From positions 248,001 to 312,000 of the forward strand of contig NZ_JAMXHT010000004.1 of the NCBI RefSeq assembly GCF_023955655.1: DNA of 64,000 nt. Direction: 5' to 3'. Made by a program: the position numbers and the translations under genes. The notes beneath the pieces are model-generated. The model was not told the origin of the DNA. It ran no database searches and was given only the letters and a program-made list of their open reading frames with translations. Shown piece by piece: positions 53,609 to 64,000 of this stretch (within the stretch, counting starts at the first letter, position 1; every line of letters starts with the position of its first letter). Source of the DNA: Ralstonia soli (GTDB lineage: Bacteria > Pseudomonadota > Gammaproteobacteria > Burkholderiales > Burkholderiaceae).

Positions 53609-53634
53609 GAAAGCCCGCGGCACTGCGGGCTTTT
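53609..53634. terminator. Intrinsic terminator after uraD
   Basis: AAAGCCCGC (53610-53618) pairs with GCGGGCTTT (53625-53633) followed by more T. It stops uraD and can also act on the converging phosphorylase gene. Confidence 0.9.
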
Positions 53635-53673: not shown

Positions 53674-55221
53674 TCAGCCCATTTGCATCGCAGACAGGCT
53701 GACTACGGCATGCGTCAGCGCGTATGTCGAGGAGTACTCCAGCTCGCCGGAGGCTTGGGCGTGAATCGTGAACAGCGGCTGGCCCACGGCGACCTGGTCG
53801 CGCAATCGCACGTGCATCTGCACGCCAGCGACCTGCCGCATGGGTGCGCCTGCGAGCTTCGCGATGCGCGCCAGGTGCCGGTTGTCGATATTGGTGACCA
53901 CGCCATTTTTCTCCGCCACGACGTCGCGACGGAAGACGGCCTCGCCTGGCGTGCGCAAGCCGCCCTGCGCTTCGCAGATGGCTTCGAACTTTCGCCAGGC
54001 CGCGCCGCTGTCCAGCAACCCGGTTGCCATGTCGAGCCCGGTTCCGGCAACGGCAGCACCGCAAAACTCCAGCAAGGCGCCGGCGAGCAATAGCGAACGG
54101 TCCCGCAAGTCGAACGGTGCGGTTGGCGAACGCTGCAGCACCGCCAGAACGTCTCTCGCTTCCAGCGCAGGGCCGATGCCGCGGCCAATCGGCTGCGTGC
54201 CGTCCGTGCGCACCATCAAAACCCGGACCCCGAATGCCTGTGCCACACGCTGGAGCAGCATGTCGAGGCGATCCAAGTCTTCGACACTACGCACCTTGGC
54301 CGTCGGCCCTACCGGCACATCGATCAGCACATGCGTCGACCCGGCCGCAATCTTCTTCGAAAGAATGGATGCGACCAGCTGCGCATCGCTGTCGACATCC
54401 AGCGCCCTTTCCACGCGGATCAGCACATCGTCTGCCGGACTCAGGCTCAATGCACCGCCCCAGGCCAGCGATGCGCCTACCTGATCCACAACCCTTCGCA
54501 GCTCCGCCGCACTCAGGTCGACGCGCGTGAGCGTTTCCATCATGTCGGCAGTCCCGGCCGGCGAAGTGATGGCACGTGACGAAGTCTTGGGCAGCAACAA
54601 CCCTGCCGCTGCCCCGATGGCAACGACGATGGGGCTGGTGCGATTGCCGGGCAGCCCGCCCACGCAGTGCTTGTCTGCAACGACGGCGCGATCCCAGTGC
54701 AGACGCTCGCCCGAATCGACCATGGCCTGCGTCAGGTCGATGGTCTCCCTGATGGTCATCCGCCCCGCCGCGCACGCGCTGAGGAACGCGGCGATATGGA
54801 CGTCGGCATAGCGTTCTTGCGAGATGTCGTTGATGATCTCCTGCAACTGGCGCGCATCCAGGTGCGCTCCATAGAGCTTGGCGCGCAAGGCGCGCAACGA
54901 CTCCAGCGATGGCGCATGCGTCACGCACACCTGGTCACCGGGGCGGGCCATCAACGGTTCCACCGCGCTGGACGACAGGCCGACCTCATGCTTCTCCAGC
55001 AGCCCCGAGCCCACCAGGTTGAGCGTGGCGATCAGCGATCGCTGCCCGATGCGGACTTCCACCCGGGCCTGCGCGGCAAAGCCTTCCGACCGGCAGACGG
55101 CGCTGTCGGGGTGCATGTAGATGACGTGCTCTTGCCACGTATCGATGCCCAGCGCCTTGAACGTCAGTTGCTCACAGGGCGTGCTCGGGGCATCGGCCAG
55201 GGGCATCAAGACAGTGGTCAT
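53674..55221 (-). CDS. Thymidine phosphorylase family protein, AMP-phosphorylase type
   Basis: A 515-aa nucleoside/nucleotide phosphorylase with three parts: an N-terminal barrel-like domain (about 1-95), which archaeal AMP phosphorylases carry but E. coli DeoA lacks, then the alpha domain (96-175) and the phosphate-binding domain. Motifs are [10 protein letters not shown] (184-193) and [15 protein letters not shown] (212-226), both matching the AMP phosphorylase/long DeoA group. The expected reaction is phosphorolysis of NMPs or nucleosides to ribose-(1,5-bis)phosphate and base. It is 9 bp after the DUF1488 gene and 315 bp from the PRPP-synthetase-like gene, on the same strand. Substrate choice (AMP or thymidine) is inferred. 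Confidence 0.87.
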
Positions 55222-55230
55222 GGCGGCGCG

Positions 55231-55509
55231 TCAGTTGGCAAAGCGGAAGTGCCCGCTGTGCAGCGTGATGTCCTTGGCGCCGGTCTGCTCGAACAGGGAG
55301 CGCGCCACCTTTTCGATGTCTCCGCGGTGCACGTGGAACGCACTGAGCAGATCGTCCGACCGGCATGAGCGCGCGCCAAAATGATCTTCGAGCGCCTCCG
55401 CCGTGATGGCGTAGCTCGCGCAGCTGCCGTCGATCGACGCGCCGCACTGCAGCAGCGGCCCGGCCGCGCAGTAGGTCGGCTCGTCCGGCGGGAACAGGAT
55501 CTGTTTCAT
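55231..55509 (-). CDS. DUF1488 family small protein
   Basis: A 92-aa protein matching the DUF1488 pattern: a beta-rich N-terminal half (MKQILFPPDEPTYCAAGPLLQCGASIDGS), then SYAITAEALEDHFGA, and a helical C-terminal half (LLSAFHVHRGDIEKVARSLFEQ). The function of the family is unknown. ATG 55509 has GGAG 6 bases upstream. It lies between the PRPP-synthetase-like gene (26 bp) and the phosphorylase gene (9 bp), so all three are in one transcript. Confidence 0.85.
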   Translation of the reverse strand: MKQILFPPDEPTYCAAGPLLQCGASIDGSCASYAITAEALEDHFGARSCRSDDLLSAFHVHRGDIEKVARSLFEQTGAKDITLHSGHFRFAN

Positions 55510-55535
55510 GATGGTCTCCAGATACGAAGGTCGGC

Positions 55536-56480
55536 TCATCCAGCAAGCAACTGCTGGCTCGCGCGCAGTGGCAGATCGAACATGCGAGTGATGGCGTCGA
55601 CCAGCGGTTTAGTCAGCGCTATCCGGTTCGACGGGTGAGGGATGGTGTCGCAGGTGACGACGTCTGCGCTGGCCGCGCACAACTGGCTGTAAGCGTCTGC
55701 GGCAAACAGGGCGTGGACTCCGATGCACACGGGCTGAGGATGGCCCGCCCGGCGCAGCGACTCCGCCGCGGCGAGCATCGTGCGCCCAGTCGAGACGATG
55801 TCATCAACCAGCACGGGAATACAGCGCGGCGGGATCGCCGGCGCATCTGCCACCTCCACGTGCCAGGCGCTGTGCCGCGTCTTGGCCAGCGCAGCCCAAG
55901 GCGCCTCGCAGATATCGGCCACCTGCGCGACCCATTGCCGGCTTTCTTCGTCAGGCCCTATCAGGAACGGTGCGCGCACGTGCGCCTGAATCCATGCGGC
56001 GATGGCGGGCGCAGCCTCCACCGCCGCCGTCGGCATGCGATAGACATCCGACAAATGCGCAATGCGGTGCAGGTGCGGGTCGACCGTCACGAGCCAGTCG
56101 AATGCGCCGTTCAACAGTGCGGCAAAGTGCTCGGCCGCGCGAACCTCGCCAGGATGAAAGACAGCGTCCTGCCGCATATAGGCGAGGTACGGCGCGATCA
56201 ACCCGACACGGCGCGCCCCGCCCTCACGCGCGGCAATCGCCAGCCATAGCAGTGGCAGGCATTTCTGGTCGGGGTGATCAAGCGTGCAGACGATGGCAAC
56301 CTCTGCGCCGTGCACCGGCGTGTACAGCCGCACGTACGATTCGCCATCCGGAAAGTGCGTTACGGCGGCGTGTCCAAGCTCGGCGCTCAGCGGGATGGCA
56401 AGTCGCATGGCGGCGGCCTCGCAGCCCGGCATGGCGATCAGCACGCGCTGCGGAGCAAGACCAACGGCCGGGGCGTTCAT
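55536..56480 (-). CDS. Ribose-phosphate pyrophosphokinase-like protein
   Basis: A 314-aa PRPP-synthetase homologue with the two phosphoribosyltransferase-like halves. The first half has FPDGESYVRL, YMRQDAVFHPGE (ATP-loop equivalent, without the usual RQDRK lysine) and VDPHLHR. The second half has KTRHSAW and the PRPP loop VDDIVSTGRT (225-234). It resembles archaeal-type or alternative PRS proteins and not the housekeeping Prs, which should be elsewhere. The ATG overlaps the upstream nuclease stop (ATGA). Next to an NMP phosphorylase it could interconvert ribose phosphates with PRPP, which is inference. Confidence 0.85.
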   Translation of the reverse strand: MNAPAVGLAPQRVLIAMPGCEAAAMRLAIPLSAELGHAAVTHFPDGESYVRLYTPVHGAEVAIVCTLDHPDQKCLPLLWLAIAAREGGARRVGLIAPYLAYMRQDAVFHPGEVRAAEHFAALLNGAFDWLVTVDPHLHRIAHLSDVYRMPTAAVEAAPAIAAWIQAHVRAPFLIGPDEESRQWVAQVADICEAPWAALAKTRHSAWHVEVADAPAIPPRCIPVLVDDIVSTGRTMLAAAESLRRAGHPQPVCIGVHALFAADAYSQLCAASADVVTCDTIPHPSNRIALTKPLVDAITRMFDLPLRASQQLLAG

Positions 56481-57841
56481 ACGTCCTCCAGATAGTAGGC
56501 CTGGCGATACTCGGGCATGCGGACCGGCCACTGCAGTTCGTGCTCGATGCGCTGGCGCAAGGCATCGCTCGCGGCCGGCTCCCCATGCACGATGAACGTT
56601 TGATGGGGTGCACGCGCAAAGCCGCGCAGCCAGGTCATCAACTCGTTGGCATCCGCATGGGCGGAAAGATTCTGGATCTGCTCGACCGAGGCGCGAATGG
56701 CAACCTCGCGGCCATGCACGCGCAACGCCCGTTGCCCCGCCAGCAGCGCTGCGCCTCGTGTACCCGCAGCCTGGAAGCCCGACATCAGGATGGCGTTGCG
56801 TCTGCCGCCGCCAAAGCTCTTGAGGTGATGCAAGACGCGGCCGCCCGTTGCCATGCCGCTGGCCGCAAGGATGATCTTGGGTGCGCGATCGTTGCCAAGG
56901 TGCATCGACTGCTCGGGGCTTTGCACCGGGATCGCCAACGCGCAAGCGGCCTGACAGTCCGCTGCCTCGATATGCAGATCATCGACATGGCGCGCGAATA
57001 CCTCGGTGGCGAGTTCGGCCATCGGGCTGTCGAGGTAGATCGGCACATGCGGGATCCGATGCTGGCGGATCAACATGTAGAGGCAATACAGCAGCGCTTG
57101 GGTACGGCCCACCGCGAAGGCGGGAATCAGCAACGTGCCGCCCTGCCCGATCGTCCGCTGCACCACCTGCTCAAGCGCGTCGAGCGGGTCGCCCTCTGGA
57201 TGCAGGCGATCTCCGTATGTCGATTCGACCAGCAGGGTATCGGCCTCGGTAATCGGCTCGGGCGGGCGCATGACGGGATCGATCTGCCGCCCGAGGTCGC
57301 CGGAAAAAACAATGCGCCGGCCCTCGGCAAACAAGGTCGCCGTGGCGGCACCGATGATGTGTCCTGCACGGTGGAACTCGGCTTCCACACCATCGGCTAC
57401 AGCAAAGCGCTCACCATAGCCCACCGGATGCAGCCTGCGCAGCGCCCTGGCGGCATCCTTCTCGTCGTAAAGCGGCAAGGCAGGATGATGGCGCGAGAAT
57501 CCCTCTGCGTTGGCGTAGTGCGCGTCTTCCTCGGCAAGCCGTGCGCTGTCAGGCAAGAGGATGTTGCACAGTTCCGCCGTGCCTTTCGTGCAATAGACCG
57601 GGCCGTGAAACCCATTGCGGACCAGCAGCGGAAGGTAGCCGCTGTGGTCGATGTGGGCGTGCGTGAGCACGACAGCGTCGATATGGTGCGGGTTGACGGC
57701 GAGCTTGTCCCAGTTGCGCAGGCGCAATGACTTGTAGCCCTGGAACAGCCCGCAGTCGACCATGACACGGCGCGCGCCGGTCTCAAGCACATACTTGGAG
57801 CCGGTCACCGTATCGGTAGCGCCGAGAAATTGCAGCCGCAT
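56477..57841 (-). CDS. MBL-fold beta-CASP RNA-metabolising hydrolase
   Basis: A 454-aa metallo-beta-lactamase protein with a beta-CASP insertion, a group of RNA nucleases (RNase J, CPSF73 and bacterial exoribonuclease-like proteins). The zinc site is H61-x-H63-x-D65-H66 (LTHAHIDHSG), followed by HRAGHIIGAA and SGDLG. The beta-CASP region has LLVESTYGDR and LIPAFAVGRTQ, and the C-terminal motif reads SAHAD and VHGEP. It is coupled to the PRPP-synthetase-like gene by ATGA and starts 15 bp after the Hsp20 stop. It probably acts on RNA in stress, but the substrate is unproven. Confidence 0.88.
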   Translation of the reverse strand: MRLQFLGATDTVTGSKYVLETGARRVMVDCGLFQGYKSLRLRNWDKLAVNPHHIDAVVLTHAHIDHSGYLPLLVRNGFHGPVYCTKGTAELCNILLPDSARLAEEDAHYANAEGFSRHHPALPLYDEKDAARALRRLHPVGYGERFAVADGVEAEFHRAGHIIGAATATLFAEGRRIVFSGDLGRQIDPVMRPPEPITEADTLLVESTYGDRLHPEGDPLDALEQVVQRTIGQGGTLLIPAFAVGRTQALLYCLYMLIRQHRIPHVPIYLDSPMAELATEVFARHVDDLHIEAADCQAACALAIPVQSPEQSMHLGNDRAPKIILAASGMATGGRVLHHLKSFGGGRRNAILMSGFQAAGTRGAALLAGQRALRVHGREVAIRASVEQIQNLSAHADANELMTWLRGFARAPHQTFIVHGEPAASDALRQRIEHELQWPVRMPEYRQAYYLEDV

Positions 57842-57856
57842 GCCGTGCCCCGATGC

Positions 57857-58279
57857 TCAGCGGATCGTAACGCGTTGCTGCGGCGAAGCTTCCTTCTTGG
57901 GCAGCGTCACGCGCAGCAGTCCGTTCTCATACGTGGCGTCGACCTTGTTCTCGTCGACGGCCGCATCCAGCGTGAACATGCGCTGCATTGCGCCGCTATA
58001 GCGTTCGCTGCGGATGATACGTTCGCCTTCCTTCTCCTCGGACTGGCGCTCCACCTTGGCCGAGATCATGACCGTACCGCGATCGACCGTCACGTCGATG
58101 TCTTCCTTCTTCGCGCCCGGGATTTCCGCAACGACGCTGTAGGCCTTGTCGGACTCCGTCACGTCGACCTTGAACGGCAGCACGCCGTCCATGTTGCCGC
58201 GAAACGAGCGCAGAAGCCCTTGAAAGATGTCGCCGACCGGCTCAATGGCGAACGGGTCATAACGCTTGAGCTGACTCAT
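57857..58279 (-). CDS. Hsp20 / alpha-crystallin family small heat-shock protein
   Basis: A 140-aa holdase chaperone. The alpha-crystallin domain spans about residues 35-135 (PFKVDVTESDKAYSVVAEIPGAKKEDIDVTV to TYENGLLRVTLPKK), and the C-terminal IxI-like motif is VTIR. A strong AGGAGG precedes the ATG. It appears to be the first gene of a five-gene operon: hsp20, beta-CASP nuclease, PRS-like, DUF1488, phosphorylase. A GC-rich hairpin lies just upstream of its ribosome binding site. Confidence 0.93.
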   Translation of the reverse strand: MSQLKRYDPFAIEPVGDIFQGLLRSFRGNMDGVLPFKVDVTESDKAYSVVAEIPGAKKEDIDVTVDRGTVMISAKVERQSEEKEGERIIRSERYSGAMQRMFTLDAAVDENKVDATYENGLLRVTLPKKEASPQQRVTIR

Positions 58280-58618
58280 GACTGCCTCCTAGTGAGTGGC
58301 CCCCGGGAATCTTGGGGCCGGCAAACTCATCGTGGCACGGCCGGCCGGGAGCGTCTTGCGGCAGATCAACGGCGGCGCACAGTCACGTCATCCGTGGCCC
58401 TGCAGGGTTCGTATTGCGCACATGGCTTCCGAGCCGCCCGCCGCCGTGTCAGGCTTTCCTGACATGGGAACCCGCCGCTCCGACAGCATTCTCAGCGCAG
58501 CCTGCATGACGCCAGCGCGCCCGCTGCCAATACTGGTGACACGCAGACACGCAACGCAGGCGCCCTGTCGAACCGCCCCAGAACACGACAACGCCAGCCA
58601 GTACAAAAGGAGCGCGCC
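58280..58618. promoter_or_regulatory. 339-bp divergent region between hsp20 and the LRAT-like gene
   Basis: No gene is supported. Near hsp20, GGCCCC (58298-58303) and GGGGCC (58314-58319) can form a hairpin in the leader, only a few bases before AGGAGG. No convincing sigma-32 pair (CTTGAAA, CCCCAT) was found on the minus strand. A TCAGG/CCTGA dyad (TGTCAGGCTTTCCTGACA, 58447-58464) with perfect 7-base arms is also present and may be an operator for either gene. Confidence 0.45.
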
Positions 58619-59119
58619 ATGACCCGGAACATTGAAGCTTTCCCCGCGTGGAACGAGCCATACGACGTCACCGCATTCGGCACTGAGCTTCCTCTCGGCG
58701 CGCACCTTGTCGCAGAACGCAATGGCTACGAACACCACGGCATCTATGTCGGCAATGGGCAGGTGATTCATTACGCCGGATTCTCCCGTCGTCAACGGCG
58801 GGGGCCGGTGGAGCGCATCTCAATCCACTGCTTTGCATGCGGTTTTGCGGTAGCCATTCAGCGCGACACCAGCCCCTGCTATGACGGCGAAGAAGTGGCC
58901 CGCCGCGCCAGTTCCCGCCTGGGGGAGCGCAACTACAGGCTGCTGACCAACAACTGCGAGCACTTCTGCTCGTGGTGCCTGTTTGGAGAGTGCCGCAGCG
59001 CGCAGGTCGAGGCATGCCTGAAAAGCCCCATGCGGGCCGCCCGCACGCTCTTCAGGTTGATGTGGGTAGCGCTTTCCATCGAATGGCCGGCCGCGCAACC
59101 ACGGGCGCAAACCGCATAA
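58619..59119 (+). CDS. LRAT domain-containing (NlpC/P60-like) protein
   Basis: A 166-aa protein with a circularly permuted NlpC/P60 fold of the lecithin:retinol acyltransferase group. Catalytic residues are the histidines of GYEHHGIYVGNG (H40) and VIHYAGF (H51) and the cysteine in NNCEHFCSWC (C113), the diagnostic NCEHF motif. The bacterial proteins are thioesterase, acyltransferase or protease candidates of unknown substrate. A final hydrophobic stretch (LFRLMWVALSI) may be membrane-associated. AAGGAG 6 bases before the ATG. Followed after 43 bp by the small gene at 59163. Confidence 0.9.
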   Translation: MTRNIEAFPAWNEPYDVTAFGTELPLGAHLVAERNGYEHHGIYVGNGQVIHYAGFSRRQRRGPVERISIHCFACGFAVAIQRDTSPCYDGEEVARRASSRLGERNYRLLTNNCEHFCSWCLFGECRSAQVEACLKSPMRAARTLFRLMWVALSIEWPAAQPRAQTA

Positions 59120-59162
59120 CGCCAATAGCGCCGATAACCTCGATAGCGCCGGAGGACACACC

Positions 59163-59384
59163 ATGGCCCCGCACCACACTTCACTGCGCGAGCTGGTCAA
59201 CAAATGGTTTGACTTGAGCGACACGCCGCACCTGCGCTTCACCCGCCTGCATTGTCCCGGTGTGGATTGCGGCTGCGTGCGGGTGGAACTCACAACGTCG
59301 ACCCGCCCGCTTGTCATCGTGTTCTTCCGTCACCAGCCGGGATGCTGGAGGTTGTTTCCGCCTTCGCACGTACGGCCGCGATAA
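59163..59384 (+). CDS. Unrecognised 73-residue protein
   Basis: A small gene supported by GGAGGACAC just before the ATG and by its position between the LRAT-like gene and ftsH on the same strand. The protein contains three cysteines in HCPGVDCGC and a hydrophobic strand PLVIVFFRHQPG, suggesting a small metal-binding fold. I know no family for it. It could be a chance frame, but the binding site and the spacing argue for a real gene. Confidence 0.55.
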   Translation: MAPHHTSLRELVNKWFDLSDTPHLRFTRLHCPGVDCGCVRVELTTSTRPLVIVFFRHQPGCWRLFPPSHVRPR

Positions 59385-59527
59385 CCATGACACGCGGCAC
59401 ATTCTCTGATGGCTCACGCGACTTTCAGGCTTGTTGATCCGCATCAAACTCCGGGCCGGTGCAAGCGCGAACATCCATTGTCGATCGGGACGTTGGTTCA
59501 GGATCGCGACCCTGCGAAGGTGAACAA

Positions 59528-61474
59528 GTGAAAGAGAGCATCCAGCCTCGGCAGCAAAGGTTCTCGCTCTGGTACGCAGTCATCGCCGCGTTGAGCATGC
59601 TTGCGTTCCAGGCGCTGTTCATGACCGAGCAGGTCGATACGCTGCCCTACAGCGACTTCAAGCTCCTGCTGCACGCGGGCAAGGTCAAGGACGTCGCCAT
59701 TGGCGAGCAGGACATCACGGGCACCTTCTCCACGGAAGGGATCGATGCGCTGCTGACGAAGCAGCAGGTTGATGACCTCCGCCGCGCAGGAAAAACCGAC
59801 CATCCTTTCCAGACGCTGCGCGTAAATGACCCAGCGCTTGTGCAGGAACTGGAGACCGCCAAAGTGCGCTTCGTCGGTCGCCCGGACAACAAATGGTTGG
59901 CCACGCTCCTGTCGTGGGTCGTGCCCGCGCTCCTGTTCTTTGCGGTGTGGAACTTCCTGATCAGGCGCATGGGTGGCGCGGCCGCCGGGGGGCTGATGGA
60001 AATCGGAAAGAGCAAGGCCAAGGTCTACATGCAAAAGGAAACCGGCGTGACTTTTGCCGACGTTGCCGGCATCGATGAAGCCAAGGAAGAGCTTTCGGAA
60101 ATCGTGAGCTTTCTGAAAGAGCCGCTGCGGTATCAGCTCCTGGGCGGCAGGATTCCCAAGGGCGTGTTGCTGGTCGGTGCGCCCGGTACGGGCAAGACCT
60201 TGCTTGCCAAAGCGGTAGCGGGCGAAGCCGCGGTCCCGTTCTTCAGCATGAGCGGGTCGGACTTTGTCGAGATGTTCGTGGGGGTGGGTGCGGCACGCGT
60301 GCGGGATCTGTTCAGCCAGGCCGAAACCATGGCGCCCTGCATCATCTTCATCGACGAACTGGACGCGCTGGGCAAAACCCGAGCGCTCAATCTGGTGGGT
60401 GGCAACGAAGAGCGCGAGCAGACGCTGAATCAGCTTCTGGTCGAGATGGACGGCTTTGACAGCAACAAGGGCGTGATCATCATGGCAGCGACGAACCGCC
60501 CCGAGATACTCGACCCTGCCCTGTTGCGGCCGGGGCGGTTTGATCGCCATATCGCACTGGACCGTCCGGACCTCAAGGGGCGCGAGCAGATTCTCAAGGT
60601 ACACGCCAAGAACGTCACGCTCCGCTCGGATGTCGACCTCAGCAAGATCGCCGCGCGCACACCTGGCTTCGCCGGTGCCGACCTGGCCAACCTTGTCAAC
60701 GAAGCGGCGCTCCTGGCCGCGCGCGAGGGCAAATCCGCCGTCGAGACCGTCGACTTTGACGAGGCATTGGATCGCATCGTGGGCGGCCTGGAGAAGAAGA
60801 ACCGCGTGATGAATGCCAAGGAGAAGGAGACGATCGCCTACCACGAAGCCGGGCATGCCATCGTGGCCGAGTACCGGCCCCTGGCGGACCGCGTGTCCAA
60901 GGTCTCCATCATCCCAAGAGGGATCGCGGCCCTCGGCTATACGCAGCAGACGCCGACGGAAGACCGTTACCTGCTCAAGCACAGCGAATTGCTGGACCGG
61001 CTGGACGTGCTGCTGGGCGGTTATGTGGCGGAGCAGATCGTGTACCACGACGTATCCACCGGCGCACAGAATGATCTGCAACGCGCAACCGACATGGCCC
61101 GCCAGATGGTGACCCAGTTCGGCATGAGCAAACAGCTTGGTCTGGCCACCTATGAGCAGATGCCCAATCCACTGCTCTCCGGTGCGGGCTGGGCGCAGCA
61201 CGAGCGCAAGGAATACAGCGAAGACACGGCTCGGCAGATCGATACGGAAGTCCGCAAGGTGCTGTCTGACGCCAGCGCACGCGTGACCGCCACCCTGGAG
61301 AGCCAGCGGGCCAAGCTCGAAGCGCTGTCGCGCCTATTGCTGGAGAAAGAGGCTGTCGACCGCCGCGACCTGGACATGATCCTCGCTGGCAACGTGACGC
61401 CCATGCTGCCTCCCAGATCAGAACCGGGCGCCGCGGCCGACATGGCGCAGTTGCCCGCGCACCAGCCGCACTGA
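59528..61474 (+). CDS. Accessory FtsH-type ATP-dependent zinc metalloprotease
   Basis: A 648-aa membrane protease. Two transmembrane segments flank a periplasmic domain (about residues 15-33 and 120-142), then AAA+ with Walker A GAPGTGKT (217-224), Walker [11 protein letters not shown], the second region of homology (RPGRFDR), and the zinc site H439-EAG-H443. The housekeeping ftsH normally lies next to rrmJ and folP; this copy lies beside stress genes and is probably an additional paralogue. The ATPase loop after FIDELDAL has [13 protein letters not shown], as in accessory FtsH proteins. I chose GTG 59528 with AAGGTG upstream. Confidence 0.92.
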
Positions 61475-61515
61475 TCGATGGCCCATGGCAATGCGTGCGG
61501 ATGAGGCACGTGGGC

Positions 61516-62802
61516 TCACGCTAACAGCGCCGTGCTCATAGGTTCGATGGCGGAGGTTTCGTTCAGATGGATAAGCGCATCAAACTGGGCGCCGATGGCT
61601 GCGTCAAAGTAGTGCGAGGCAAACTCGGTCTTCGGTAGGTAGAGCACACCGATTGCCCGTTCCAGAAGCGGCTCATGAAACGCGTCCGAAGCCGTATCGC
61701 CGAGTGGCAGGAAGAAGCGATCCAGCCCGGTGCTATGGAACAGATGTTCCCAGCTGTCGGGGCGCGCAGGCCGCACCCATTTCCGTTCGGGCTCGCCGCC
61801 CCACTCCGATGCCGCGCACACGTAGCCCGTGTAGGTGGTGAAGCCGACCAGCAATGCGGCCGCACCCACCTTCTCCCGCACGAGCTGCCCAAGGTTCCAC
61901 TCGCGCCGGCGGACGGATTCCGTGGCCCGTGCGTCGCCCACGTGCGAGTTGTGTGCCCACACGACGACGCGCCCATGACCTCCACGGCGCTGCCGATACG
62001 CAGCTACGCTCAACAGCGTTTGCGCCATGTGCGCATCGCGCAGGTTCCACGTATTGACGCGATGCCCGAACGATTCCCGGTAGTAGGCCTCGGCATTGAC
62101 GACGACGATGGCGTTTTGCTCGGCGAAGAAATGCGAGTCGATAGCTGCAATGCCATCCTGCTCAATGAGCCTCGCCTCGCTTGCCCGAAGCTGCTGAAGT
62201 TGCTCGATGACTTCGCGTTGCGCCGGCAACCTCAGACCTGCGGCCGCTTCGTAGCCGTACGTCATCGGCTCCCGCACATGATCGAGCGCCGCATAGTGCA
62301 TGCGCGCCACTGCGGCCTGATCCGGATCGGCCTTCTGCAGGTATTCGATGACCGCCTCAGCCGAGCGGTACAGGCTATACAGATCCAGCCCATAAACGCC
62401 CACGCGTTCCGAAGCGGCGAGCGCCGAGTTGTGATCACGAAGCCAGGTGATGAAGTCGAGCACTTCCTGATTGCGCCACATCCACTCGGGAAACCGGTGG
62501 AAATCGCCCAGTGCCTCGGCAGACGTGTCCGCGCCCTCACCCTGGACGTAGCGGTTGATGCGCCACACGTCGGGCCAGTCACCCTCGATGGCGATGGCGT
62601 CAAAGCCGCCTTGCACAATCAGTTGCCGGGTGATGTCGGCGCGTGTCTGGTAGAACTCGCGTGTTCCGTGCGTCGCCTCGCCCAAGAGGGCGTAGCGCTT
62701 GTCGCGCGCCATCTCCAGCAGGCGTTCATAGTCGGCAGCGCCGCCCGTGAGGCGGCTGGCCGCTTCGCGTACACCAAGAAACGGGGTGAGAGGCGCAGAC
62801 AT
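61516..62802 (-). CDS. Erythromycin esterase family protein
   Basis: A 428-aa member of the Ere-like family. Conserved segments are LLGEATHGTREFY (40-52, catalytic-histidine region), EGDWPDVWRIN, FHRFPEWMWRN and WAHNSHVGDAR. Few relatives are true macrolide esterases; many are found in stress or succinoglycan-type clusters, as here, so antibiotic resistance should not be assumed. ATG 62802 gives the family start. It is convergent with ftsH, with 41 bp between stops. It is divergent from the BCAM0308-like gene. Confidence 0.88.
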   Translation of the reverse strand: MSAPLTPFLGVREAASRLTGGAADYERLLEMARDKRYALLGEATHGTREFYQTRADITRQLIVQGGFDAIAIEGDWPDVWRINRYVQGEGADTSAEALGDFHRFPEWMWRNQEVLDFITWLRDHNSALAASERVGVYGLDLYSLYRSAEAVIEYLQKADPDQAAVARMHYAALDHVREPMTYGYEAAAGLRLPAQREVIEQLQQLRASEARLIEQDGIAAIDSHFFAEQNAIVVVNAEAYYRESFGHRVNTWNLRDAHMAQTLLSVAAYRQRRGGHGRVVVWAHNSHVGDARATESVRRREWNLGQLVREKVGAAALLVGFTTYTGYVCAASEWGGEPERKWVRPARPDSWEHLFHSTGLDRFFLPLGDTASDAFHEPLLERAIGVLYLPKTEFASHYFDAAIGAQFDALIHLNETSAIEPMSTALLA

Positions 62803-63036
62803 GGTCGGTGGACTCCAACGGGCGCAACGGCGGTATCTGCAGTCTATGCAGCACCACCGCGCGTTGATTGCGCTATCGCAAGCGACGGGCCACCCGGCGG
62901 GATACATACAGCGCCAAGACTTGATGCAGCCCAAACCGCGGCACGCTACGGCGGATATTCTGAAAACGACCCACCGCCTGCCGCGCCGACTGCGCTATGG
63001 AGCGGGCCGGACGAACGTCCCTACCAAGGAGTCAAC

Positions 63037-63537
63037 ATGAAACAACGTTCTCAATCCGAACGAGTACGGCCCGCACGCTGGAGCCCATTTGCCGTTGAGC
63101 CAATCCACAACCGGTATCGGGAGCCCGACAAGGCGCCGGCAGCAAGCCGCTGCCCGGTGTGCGGGGCCGTCTACCTCAAGGGCCGCTGGCTTTGGCGCAA
63201 TCCTCCTCCCGGTGCGGCCACGCTGGTCTGCTCGGCATGCCAGCGCGCCGCCGACCAGATGCCAGCAGCGCGCATCCATCTTTCGGGCGAATTCGAAGCC
63301 GCCCACCGTGAAGACATTCTTACGCTCGCGCGCCACCGCGAGGCGGATCTGCGTGCCGATCATCCGATGGAACGCATCATGACTGTCGAAAGCACCGCCG
63401 ACGGCACCGACATCCTGACGACAGGGTTCCACCTTGCGCGCGACATCGGCCACGCGATCCACCACGCATTCCACGGCCGGCTGACATTCGACTACGGCAA
63501 TGCTGAAACCGAACTGCACGTGAATTGGAGTCGCTAG
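63037..63537 (+). CDS. BCAM0308-like zinc-ribbon protein
   Basis: A 166-aa protein. A zinc-ribbon-like pair is CPVCGAVYLKGRW (about residue 40) and LVCSACQRAADQMPA (about 67), typical of the BCAM0308 family described from Burkholderia cenocepacia low-oxygen and stress clusters. The C-terminal half (HREADLRADHPMERIMTVESTADGTDILTTGFHLARDIGHAIHHAFHG) is a conserved alpha/beta segment. AAGGAG 5 bases before the ATG. No function is known. Long open frame upstream is a shadow of the esterase gene. Confidence 0.85.
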   Translation: MKQRSQSERVRPARWSPFAVEPIHNRYREPDKAPAASRCPVCGAVYLKGRWLWRNPPPGAATLVCSACQRAADQMPAARIHLSGEFEAAHREDILTLARHREADLRADHPMERIMTVESTADGTDILTTGFHLARDIGHAIHHAFHGRLTFDYGNAETELHVNWSR

Positions 63538-63573
63538 GGCCCCGGCCGATTGCCTGGCCCACAGGATGAATGC

Positions 63574-64000
63574 TCAACCGTGTGCAACCACGGCTTGCGA
63601 CAACGAAACCTCTCGGTAGCACTGCGCGATCTCGGCGGCGCTGCCGAGTTCGGTACCGGCATGGCTCAACGCTGCGGCAGCGGCAGCCATGCCGTATCGG
63701 AACGCCTCCAGCATGCCGGCATTCCGGTTAAGCGCCCATACCATTGCGCCCACGAAGCTGTCGCCCGCCCCGATGGTGCTGAGGATTGACGTCGCAACAG
63801 CACCCGAGCGAACAACCTCCTCCTGCGTGACAAGCAGGGCTCCGCCTGCACCGAGGGTGAGCGCAACCACCTGCGCGTGTCCCCTGCGGACGATCTCCAG
63901 TGCAGCCTCTATGCAATGGGCGTCCAACTCCAGTGCCTGCCCAGTCAGTTGCCGAAGCTCGTTGAAGCTTGGCTTGATCAGGTAGGGCCCGTGCGGCAGC
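63574..64000 (-). CDS. PfkB family carbohydrate kinase, partial (5' end outside window)
   Basis: The last ~140 residues of a ribokinase/1-phosphofructokinase-type sugar kinase, cut by the right edge. It includes YLIKPSFNELRQLTG, VVALTLGAGGALLVT and the catalytic GAGDSFVGAMVWALN with the active-site aspartate. The sequence suits PfkB (E. coli Pfk-2) or tagatose/fructose-6-phosphate kinases. It is convergent with the BCAM0308-like gene. In many stress clusters a PfkB gene lies next to universal-stress or Hsp20 genes, which would fit here. Confidence 0.9.
   Translation of the reverse strand, partial: LPHGPYLIKPSFNELRQLTGQALELDAHCIEAALEIVRRGHAQVVALTLGAGGALLVTQEEVVRSGAVATSILSTIGAGDSFVGAMVWALNRNAGMLEAFRYGMAAAAAALSHAGTELGSAAEIAQCYREVSLSQAVVAHG

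Follow-up and report, generated by a model that had tools for sequence, protein, structure and literature searches.

An archaeal-type nucleotide phosphorylase and a PRPP-synthase-like protein as a conserved bacterial unit: a candidate low-oxygen route of nucleotide dismantling in Ralstonia soli

We analysed a 64,000-nucleotide stretch of the Ralstonia soli genome (the window; G000:C26:248001-312000 of a 5.73-Mb genome), and within it a five-gene run on the minus strand that encodes, among others, a phosphorylase annotated as thymidine phosphorylase (TP) and a protein resembling the synthase (PRS) of phosphoribosyl pyrophosphate (PRPP), here called PRS-like. We propose, with a probability slightly better than even (about 0.55), that this operon is a bacterial counterpart to the archaeal nucleotide-dismantling route, built around the conserved two-enzyme unit of TP and the PRS-like protein and placed under an FNR/FixK-type switch at low oxygen. 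A beta-CASP nuclease of the same run would degrade RNA to nucleoside 5'-monophosphates (NMPs), TP would split an NMP with phosphate into the base and alpha-ribose 1,5-bisphosphate (R15P), and the PRS-like protein would act on R15P, preferably as R15P + AMP -> ribose 5-phosphate (R5P) + ADP, with the geometry of the phosphoryl transfer in ordinary PRS and ADP replacing ATP. R5P could then pass to central metabolism, a gain of carbon without ATP cost in which part of the phosphoryl energy would be returned. We infer all substrates and reactions, above all those of the third step, from sequence.

All genes named in a preliminary description of this DNA are present in the window. The run reads hsp20, beta-CASP, PRS-like, DUF1488 and TP (53674-58279) and is as nearly gap-free as that description had it, with intergenic gaps of 15 bp (hsp20/beta-CASP) and 9 bp (DUF1488/TP) and two 4-bp ATGA overlaps (beta-CASP/PRS-like and PRS-like/DUF1488). 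This five-gene operon is real and beyond a chance arrangement, because its order is identical in 11 of 11 close relatives and because TP and PRS-like co-occur across the 398 genomes considered below.

TP passes TIGR02645 (698 bits, cut-off 434.6) and PRK04350 (681.5, cut-off 434), so that the earlier claim of an AMP-phosphorylase-type enzyme in a bacterium is supported, and it scores far below the thymidine phosphorylase (DeoA) model TIGR02643 (T_phosphoryl; 138.5 against a cut-off of 570.7). Its nearest solved structure is the archaeal enzyme 4ga5, with which it has in common the active-site segments GGxPGNxT and a second one of 16 letters; both differ in a pyrimidine-nucleoside phosphorylase in the same alignment, and their conservation extends to 107 relatives and, for the most part, to nine relatives fused to PhnN. 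Judged by these comparisons, TP is a member of the archaeal enzyme's family and not of the thymidine phosphorylase family. The archaeal AMP/NMP phosphorylase converts NMPs to R15P, according to the available parts of two papers (PMC9700705; PMC8376864), and we find it very likely that TP also makes R15P from nucleotides. The annotation itself, in the family name as in the published Bradyrhizobium tables, would make TP a (deoxy)nucleoside phosphorylase and the cluster ordinary nucleoside salvage in a stress island; with DeoA-type models so far below cut-off, a characterised archaeal relative that accepts NMPs (in the same partly available sources), and PhnN fusions that are most sensible if the product is R15P, this explanation is very improbable.

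The window TP is 89-91% identical to TPs of several Ralstonia, including R. pickettii. A solitary fragment 310 kb away (G000:C26:614120-614371, L005) comprises about 85 codons, 58-60% identical to TP residues 342-428, and its sequence marks it as the remnant of a second TP copy. A contig filed under a Candidatus Wolfebacteria metagenome-assembled genome (MAG; L007, NVTD01000041.1) carries the Ralstonia island in the same gene order with a TP identity of 90%, and is probably a binning contaminant.

Co-conservation was assessed in 398 genomes drawn evenly from the phylum, with the profile cut-offs of TIGR02645 for TP and NF005537 for PRS-like; several profile hidden Markov models for the locus content, residue, fusion, promoter and tree work were built here from fetched loci. 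TP exceeded its cut-off in 43 genomes and PRS-like in 40, with both in 39 and neither in 354, while 4 genomes had TP without PRS-like and 1 had PRS-like without TP (Fisher P 2.7e-48, kinship among genomes ignored). The 39 genomes with both span 17 families, and NF005537 was over cut-off in none of 14 control genomes. The distance between the two genes was measured on one contig for 38 of these 39 genomes and for G285, whose PRS-like protein scores 299.6, slightly below the NF005537 cut-off; 37 of the 39 measured pairs lie no more than 200 bp apart, the others being the window genome (402 bp, with DUF1488 in between) and G293 (4.4 kb).

Of 45 sampled TP loci (the window's excluded), 38 have PRS-like in the same-strand run, 17 have beta-CASP and 4 have a phosphoketolase-like gene, and in 64 named loci beyond the close relatives the corresponding counts are 43, 36 and 12, while Hsp20 is found in 1 of the 64 and DUF1488 in none. 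The beta-CASP, phosphoketolase and PRS counts rest on thresholds set in this analysis; the counts leave out L192 (without TP) and L194 (TP end only) and include L193 (TP slightly below cut-off), and among the 64 are Cupriavidus loci as well as three copies (L062, L063 and L070) contributed by a single genome. The order of the core genes varies (TP-PRS-beta-CASP, beta-CASP-TP-PRS, PRS-phosphoketolase-beta-CASP-TP), which favours selection for the set over inheritance of a single block. Outside the close Ralstonia relatives the core is TP and PRS-like, with or without beta-CASP, and Hsp20 and DUF1488 stand outside it; of the co-conservation raised in the preliminary description, the neighbourhood comparison upheld the part concerning TP, PRS-like and beta-CASP and not the part concerning Hsp20 and DUF1488.

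Besides the near miss G285, the TP genomes without PRS-like over cut-off are G308, G382 and G392, each of which has PhnN and TP in a single open reading frame (ORF). Nine of 32 long TP ORFs, those in which the TP part scored below 610, were scanned for PhnN (the remaining 23 are mostly stop-to-stop overextensions); they come from G308, G382, G392, G249 and five named loci, including Roseovarius nubinhibens and a Flavobacteriaceae MAG. PhnN was over cut-off in 9 of 9 and TIGR02645 in 7 of 9, the other two scoring 417.4 and 409.4 against 434.6, and the PhnN-TP fusions form one clade with a support of 1.0. As expected, three fused genomes (L072, L075 and L076) have no PRS-like over cut-off genome-wide. 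PhnN is an R15P-using enzyme (PMC9700705, in the part available), and its fusion to TP is strong indirect evidence that TP makes R15P. In two Cupriavidus genomes (L017 and L020, no PRS-like over cut-off) a second TP is fused in one ORF to PhnN over cut-off (L218:1662-3539 and L219:1630-3468), so a free TP and a PhnN-TP fusion can coexist in one cell.

Among the 43 TP genomes, R15P isomerase (TIGR00511) was over cut-off in none, with weaker matches in 21 and no match in the window genome, and PhnN was over cut-off in 12; the 31 genomes with neither over cut-off, the window's included, all have PRS-like. RuBisCO (PF00016) was looked for in the window genome only, without a match, and a RuBisCO or R15P-isomerase route is ruled out there, as neither PF00016 nor TIGR00511 matched. 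If TP makes R15P, the PRS-like protein is the enzyme best placed to use it.

The PRS-like protein passes NF005537 (420, cut-off 322) and also TIGR01251. Its AlphaFold2 model (predicted local distance difference test 94.5, predicted template modelling score 0.91) has the PRS fold, with a TM-score of up to 0.93, to 3mbi (T. volcanium PRS). We compared residues between 95 PRS-like sequences, close relatives among them, and 21 ordinary PRS (20 picked from genome-sample matches and the window genome's own). The PRS-like sequences retain D45, E47, R103, Q104, D105, H136, D177, K200, R202, D226, D227 and T234 (94-95 of 95), and they also keep P176; we take the conserved K and R of the flexible loop to be catalytic and the further conserved residues to be those for Mg, ATP and R5P. 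The diphosphate loop, presumably the one that holds the PRPP diphosphate in PRS, is changed from S-P-D-x-G-G to G-P-D-x-E-S, with G and E (E179) in 95 of 95 and S in 92 of 95, against G-G in 21 of 21 ordinary PRS; the aligned E. coli, M. jannaschii and S. solfataricus enzymes have the first loop glycine. In addition, Q139 is replaced by R in 95 of 95 and R183 by W in 94 of 95, and H138 is fixed (95 of 95) at a position that is mixed in ordinary PRS.

From these replacements we infer that the pocket which takes up the outer phosphate in ATP or PRPP would be closed and that the protein would use ADP/AMP together with R15P. R15P from phosphorolysis has the alpha configuration, the same as PRPP. 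It appears rather probable that the PRS-like protein is the R15P partner of TP and acts on R15P; the assignment of R5P and ADP as its products is a tentative one, and formation of PRPP is possible. The re-use of ribose phosphates by this protein, suggested in the preliminary description, is plausible in a narrower form than was claimed there, as the pairing and the PhnN fusions point to R15P.

Two alternatives concern this step. The PRS-like protein could do the job of PhnN (R15P + ATP -> PRPP + ADP), and the unit would then turn NMPs into base and PRPP for base exchange or salvage, and not serve ribose catabolism. PhnN, which leads from R15P to PRPP, is indeed the alternative partner fused to TP, and ordinary members of the PRS family bind PRPP with this fold; a diphosphate loop that has lost both glycines disfavours a PRPP product, however, and a phosphoketolase-like gene in the run (12 of 64 named and 4 of 45 sampled loci) fits R5P better, so we consider this unlikely. 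Less likely again is a divergent but ordinary PRPP synthase (R5P + ATP -> PRPP + AMP), whose PRPP would re-attach bases released elsewhere while other enzymes handle R15P. The fold, the catalytic residues and the two profiles passed are what such an enzyme would have, but the window genome has a separate housekeeping PRS (406 bits on TIGR01251, against 157 for the operon protein), each of the loop changes is carried by 92-95 of 95 sequences, and the near-strict pairing with TP (39 of 40) is unexpected for a general source of PRPP.

Upstream of these two enzymes in the proposed dismantling route, the beta-CASP protein has as its nearest solved relative the RNase TTHA0252 of Thermus (E 2.4e-79), for which a 5'-3' exoRNase activity is reported in the available part of PMC4229858. 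A beta-CASP enzyme of that kind would yield 5'-NMPs, the proposed substrates of TP, and the earlier link of this cluster to the dismantling of nucleotides is supported. Downstream, a phosphoketolase-like gene of the same operon could in some relatives take the pentose to acetyl phosphate. Such genes stand in TP/PRS-like operons at L053:6210-8594, L050:6177-8561, L174 and L182-L184. Three of the operon-linked proteins were scanned and score about 133 over 22 on Pfam XFP, far below the NCBIfam phosphoketolase cut-offs; by sequence they form a divergent group, of uncertain substrate.

Regarding oxygen control, the FNR/FixK-type box TTGATCTGCCGCAA lies 90 bp upstream of the hsp20 start codon in the window and 88-100 bp upstream in 11 of 11 close loci, where its surroundings are poorly conserved; the distant locus L022 in the same alignment does not have it. 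Boxes of this type bind FNR or FixK. Across the window and the next 18 kb downstream, the pattern TTG(A/C)N6(T/G)CAA occurs at 14 sites where 5.1 were expected; 13 sites lie beyond 56.8 kb, two of these 13 inside the beta-CASP gene, and the window genome encodes an Fnr equivalog (245, cut-off 228). Outside Ralstonia, 16 of 105 operons have an FNR/FixK-type box, compared with 4.1 on average and at most 10 when control windows were drawn 200 times from random places, mostly inside genes. In Bradyrhizobium diazoefficiens, bll3117 (TP), bll3116 (PRS) and bll3115 (metallo-beta-lactamase protein, MBL) are found in a table of genes and proteins induced under microoxia (PMC6515984, tables). They form a predicted operon with a FixK2 box at -74, printed among the FixK2 boxes of PMC9104804 (available in part), where deletion of fixK2 lowered bll3117 6.6-fold and bll3115 30.6-fold, and the phosphoketolase bll2518 and acetate kinase bll2517 about 10-fold. 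Low oxygen was among the stresses considered in the preliminary description; such control is supported by the conserved box and the Bradyrhizobium tables, and for the operon in this organism the sequence makes it likely.

A second Fnr-like gene lies about 29 kb past the window end (G000:C26:340884-341564, L217; 216 bits, below the cut-off of 228, the match crossing one TGA). A sigma-70 scan at hsp20 gave no promoter match. A hairpin 3' of TP (53609-53634) is not claimed here as a terminator, its minus-strand fold being no stabler than shuffles (z -0.26).

Several points weigh against our proposal. There is no known activity for any protein of this set. TP stays below the AMP phosphorylase equivalog TIGR03327 (AMP_phos; 471.7, cut-off 535), and for this reason we do not name it AMP phosphorylase proper. 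Passing the C1 phosphate from R15P to AMP is thermodynamically uphill under standard conditions, so high AMP would be needed. The beta-CASP gene is in the run of just 17 of the 45 sampled loci. Eight genomes with PRS-like carry PhnN too. A whole-genome search for PRS-like covered 12 of the 15 tree tips with unfused TP and no PRS-like on the fetched stretch (L080, L176 and L195 left out): 5 genomes have it over cut-off elsewhere and 7 do not have it over cut-off genome-wide, and of these 7 (several being fragmentary MAGs) PhnN is over cut-off in 3 and neither protein in 4; L017 and L067 hold short NF005537 matches, possibly pieces. G383 is the only genome of the 398 with PRS-like and no TP over cut-off, possibly a separate use of the enzyme. 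Its gene (L192:9475-10416) has as neighbours ORFs that resemble, by eye, peptidase, oxygenase and ABC transporter genes. The window genome is without a match to PF09364 (phosphoketolase); a phosphoketolase step is ruled out in this organism on that ground, and R5P would there enter other pentose metabolism. Finally, 89 of the 105 non-Ralstonia operons have no FNR/FixK-type box, which means that FNR/FixK control is not universal.

The features of the window are listed in Table 1. Hsp20, DUF1488, FtsH and the other genes flanking the core look like parts of an lxa-type low-oxygen island. In the available part of PMC6127331, the lxa locus of Burkholderia cenocepacia includes Hsp20 (BCAM0278), an MBL protein (BCAM0300), BCAM0308 and a phosphofructokinase (BCAM0311), and FixK is discussed as its regulator. 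A relative of the small ORF at 59163-59384 was found in 9 of 11 close Ralstonia loci, and the likelier start of FtsH is the GTG at 59528. Past the window end, the ORFs resemble, by eye, genes for BON, hibernation-factor, CBS, nitroreductase, phosphoribosyltransferase and P-type ATPase proteins.

Table 1. Genes and candidate regulatory sites in the window (positions of the window; scores are given as score over cut-off).
Feature	Position	Strand	Basis or remark
TP, archaeal-type NMP (AMP) phosphorylase family, annotated thymidine phosphorylase, 515 aa	53674..55221	-	TIGR02645
DUF1488 protein, 102 aa	55231..55539	-	PF07369 68.2 over 22; operon member in 11 close relatives only
PRS-like, PRPP-synthase fold with changed diphosphate loop, 314 aa; proposed R15P enzyme	55536..56480	-	NF005537
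beta-CASP metallo-beta-lactamase nuclease, 454 aa	56477..57841	-	PF10996 and PF07521 over cut-off
Hsp20, first gene of the operon, 140 aa	57857..58279	-	PF00011 76.3 over 20.8
FNR/FixK-type box TTGATCTGCCGCAA before hsp20	58356..58369	-	identical in window and 11/11 close loci
LRAT-like protein (island, not core)	58619..59119	+	PF04970 88.6 over 24.3
Small ORF, 73 codons, between LRAT-like and ftsH (island, not core)	59163..59384	+	no Pfam match
Exact FNR-type palindrome TTGATCCGCATCAA before ftsH (island, not core)	59434..59447	.	
FtsH protease (island, not core)	59459..61474	+	TIGR01241 799.9 over 600
Ere-like, erythromycin-esterase family (island, not core)	61516..62802	-	PF05139 406.3 over 26.4
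FixK-type box before Ere-like gene (island, not core)	62868..62881	.	
BCAM0308 family protein, marker of lxa-type loci	63031..63537	+	NF040826 153.2 over 100
PfkB-family sugar kinase, C-terminal part (window end cuts gene)	63574..64000	-	best TIGR03168 107.4, cut-off 216.4; below because partial

The preliminary description had joined all of these into one integrated system of nucleotide salvage, protein quality control (Hsp20 and FtsH) and a sugar kinase. The genes do adjoin, and several are preceded by FNR/FixK-type boxes, so joint switching is possible; distant relatives, however, keep only TP, PRS-like and beta-CASP together. Quality-control genes as a core feature were ruled out on the loss of Hsp20 and DUF1488 beyond the close relatives (1 and 0 of 64 loci), and with flanks around the core that look lxa-type, the membership of hsp20, DUF1488, FtsH, Ere-like, LRAT-like and PfkB genes in one system with it was not supported. 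We regard such a system as hardly credible. The island is of a known kind, and its notable part is the TP/PRS-like pair: this conserved unit and its PhnN-fused twin are stronger than the preliminary description saw.

Nucleotide dismantling via R15P is described mainly from archaea. In titles and abstracts of the literature under Creative Commons licences, no AMP/NMP phosphorylase of bacteria with PRS, PhnN or phosphoketolase as its partner was described, which is weak evidence of absence. If our proposal is true in many bacterial families (17 in the sample), with another protein as the second enzyme, then a familiar fold has an activity that has gone unrecognised, and the common annotations "thymidine phosphorylase" and "ribose-phosphate pyrophosphokinase" are misleading; it would also suggest a source of carbon and energy for aerobic bacteria persisting without oxygen. 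To hypothesize further, the PRS-like family may represent a new activity, an R15P:AMP phosphotransferase that arose from PRPP synthase when the glycines binding the diphosphate were exchanged. Together with the NMP phosphorylase it may make up a minimal "RNA fermentation" module of two enzymes, with which bacteria starved of oxygen could live on the RNA they already contain: the nucleotide would be split with phosphate, ADP regenerated without respiration, and ribose passed to central metabolism (in some lineages through phosphoketolase to acetyl phosphate). Taken in full, this is speculative and rather doubtful.

Compared with known systems, the window has in common with lxa of B. cenocepacia the Hsp20, MBL, PfkB and BCAM0308 family proteins in one island and FixK/FNR-type sites before genes, and with the FixK2 regulon of B. 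diazoefficiens the TP, PRS and MBL genes, which are predicted there to form a single operon dependent on FixK2. It differs from both in gene order, and in the available parts of those sources (for the FixK2 genes, the tables) the genes are not described as a nucleotide-dismantling pathway. The PRS-like protein has the fold and catalytic residues of PRPP synthase and differs from it in the loop G-P-D-x-E-S, the fixed H138, R139 and W183, and its occurrence almost exclusively alongside TP. With Escherichia coli PhnN (ribose 1,5-bisphosphokinase), a family fused to TP in one clade, it would share the use of R15P; the two are unrelated in sequence, and the product of PhnN is PRPP while that proposed for PRS-like is R5P. 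Finally, the archaeal NMP degradation (the pentose bisphosphate pathway of Thermococcus kodakarensis, with AMP/NMP phosphorylase, R15P isomerase and RuBisCO) employs the same phosphorylase family and, if we are right, the same R15P intermediate, whereas in bacteria the place of the isomerase and RuBisCO would be taken by PRS-like or a fused PhnN.

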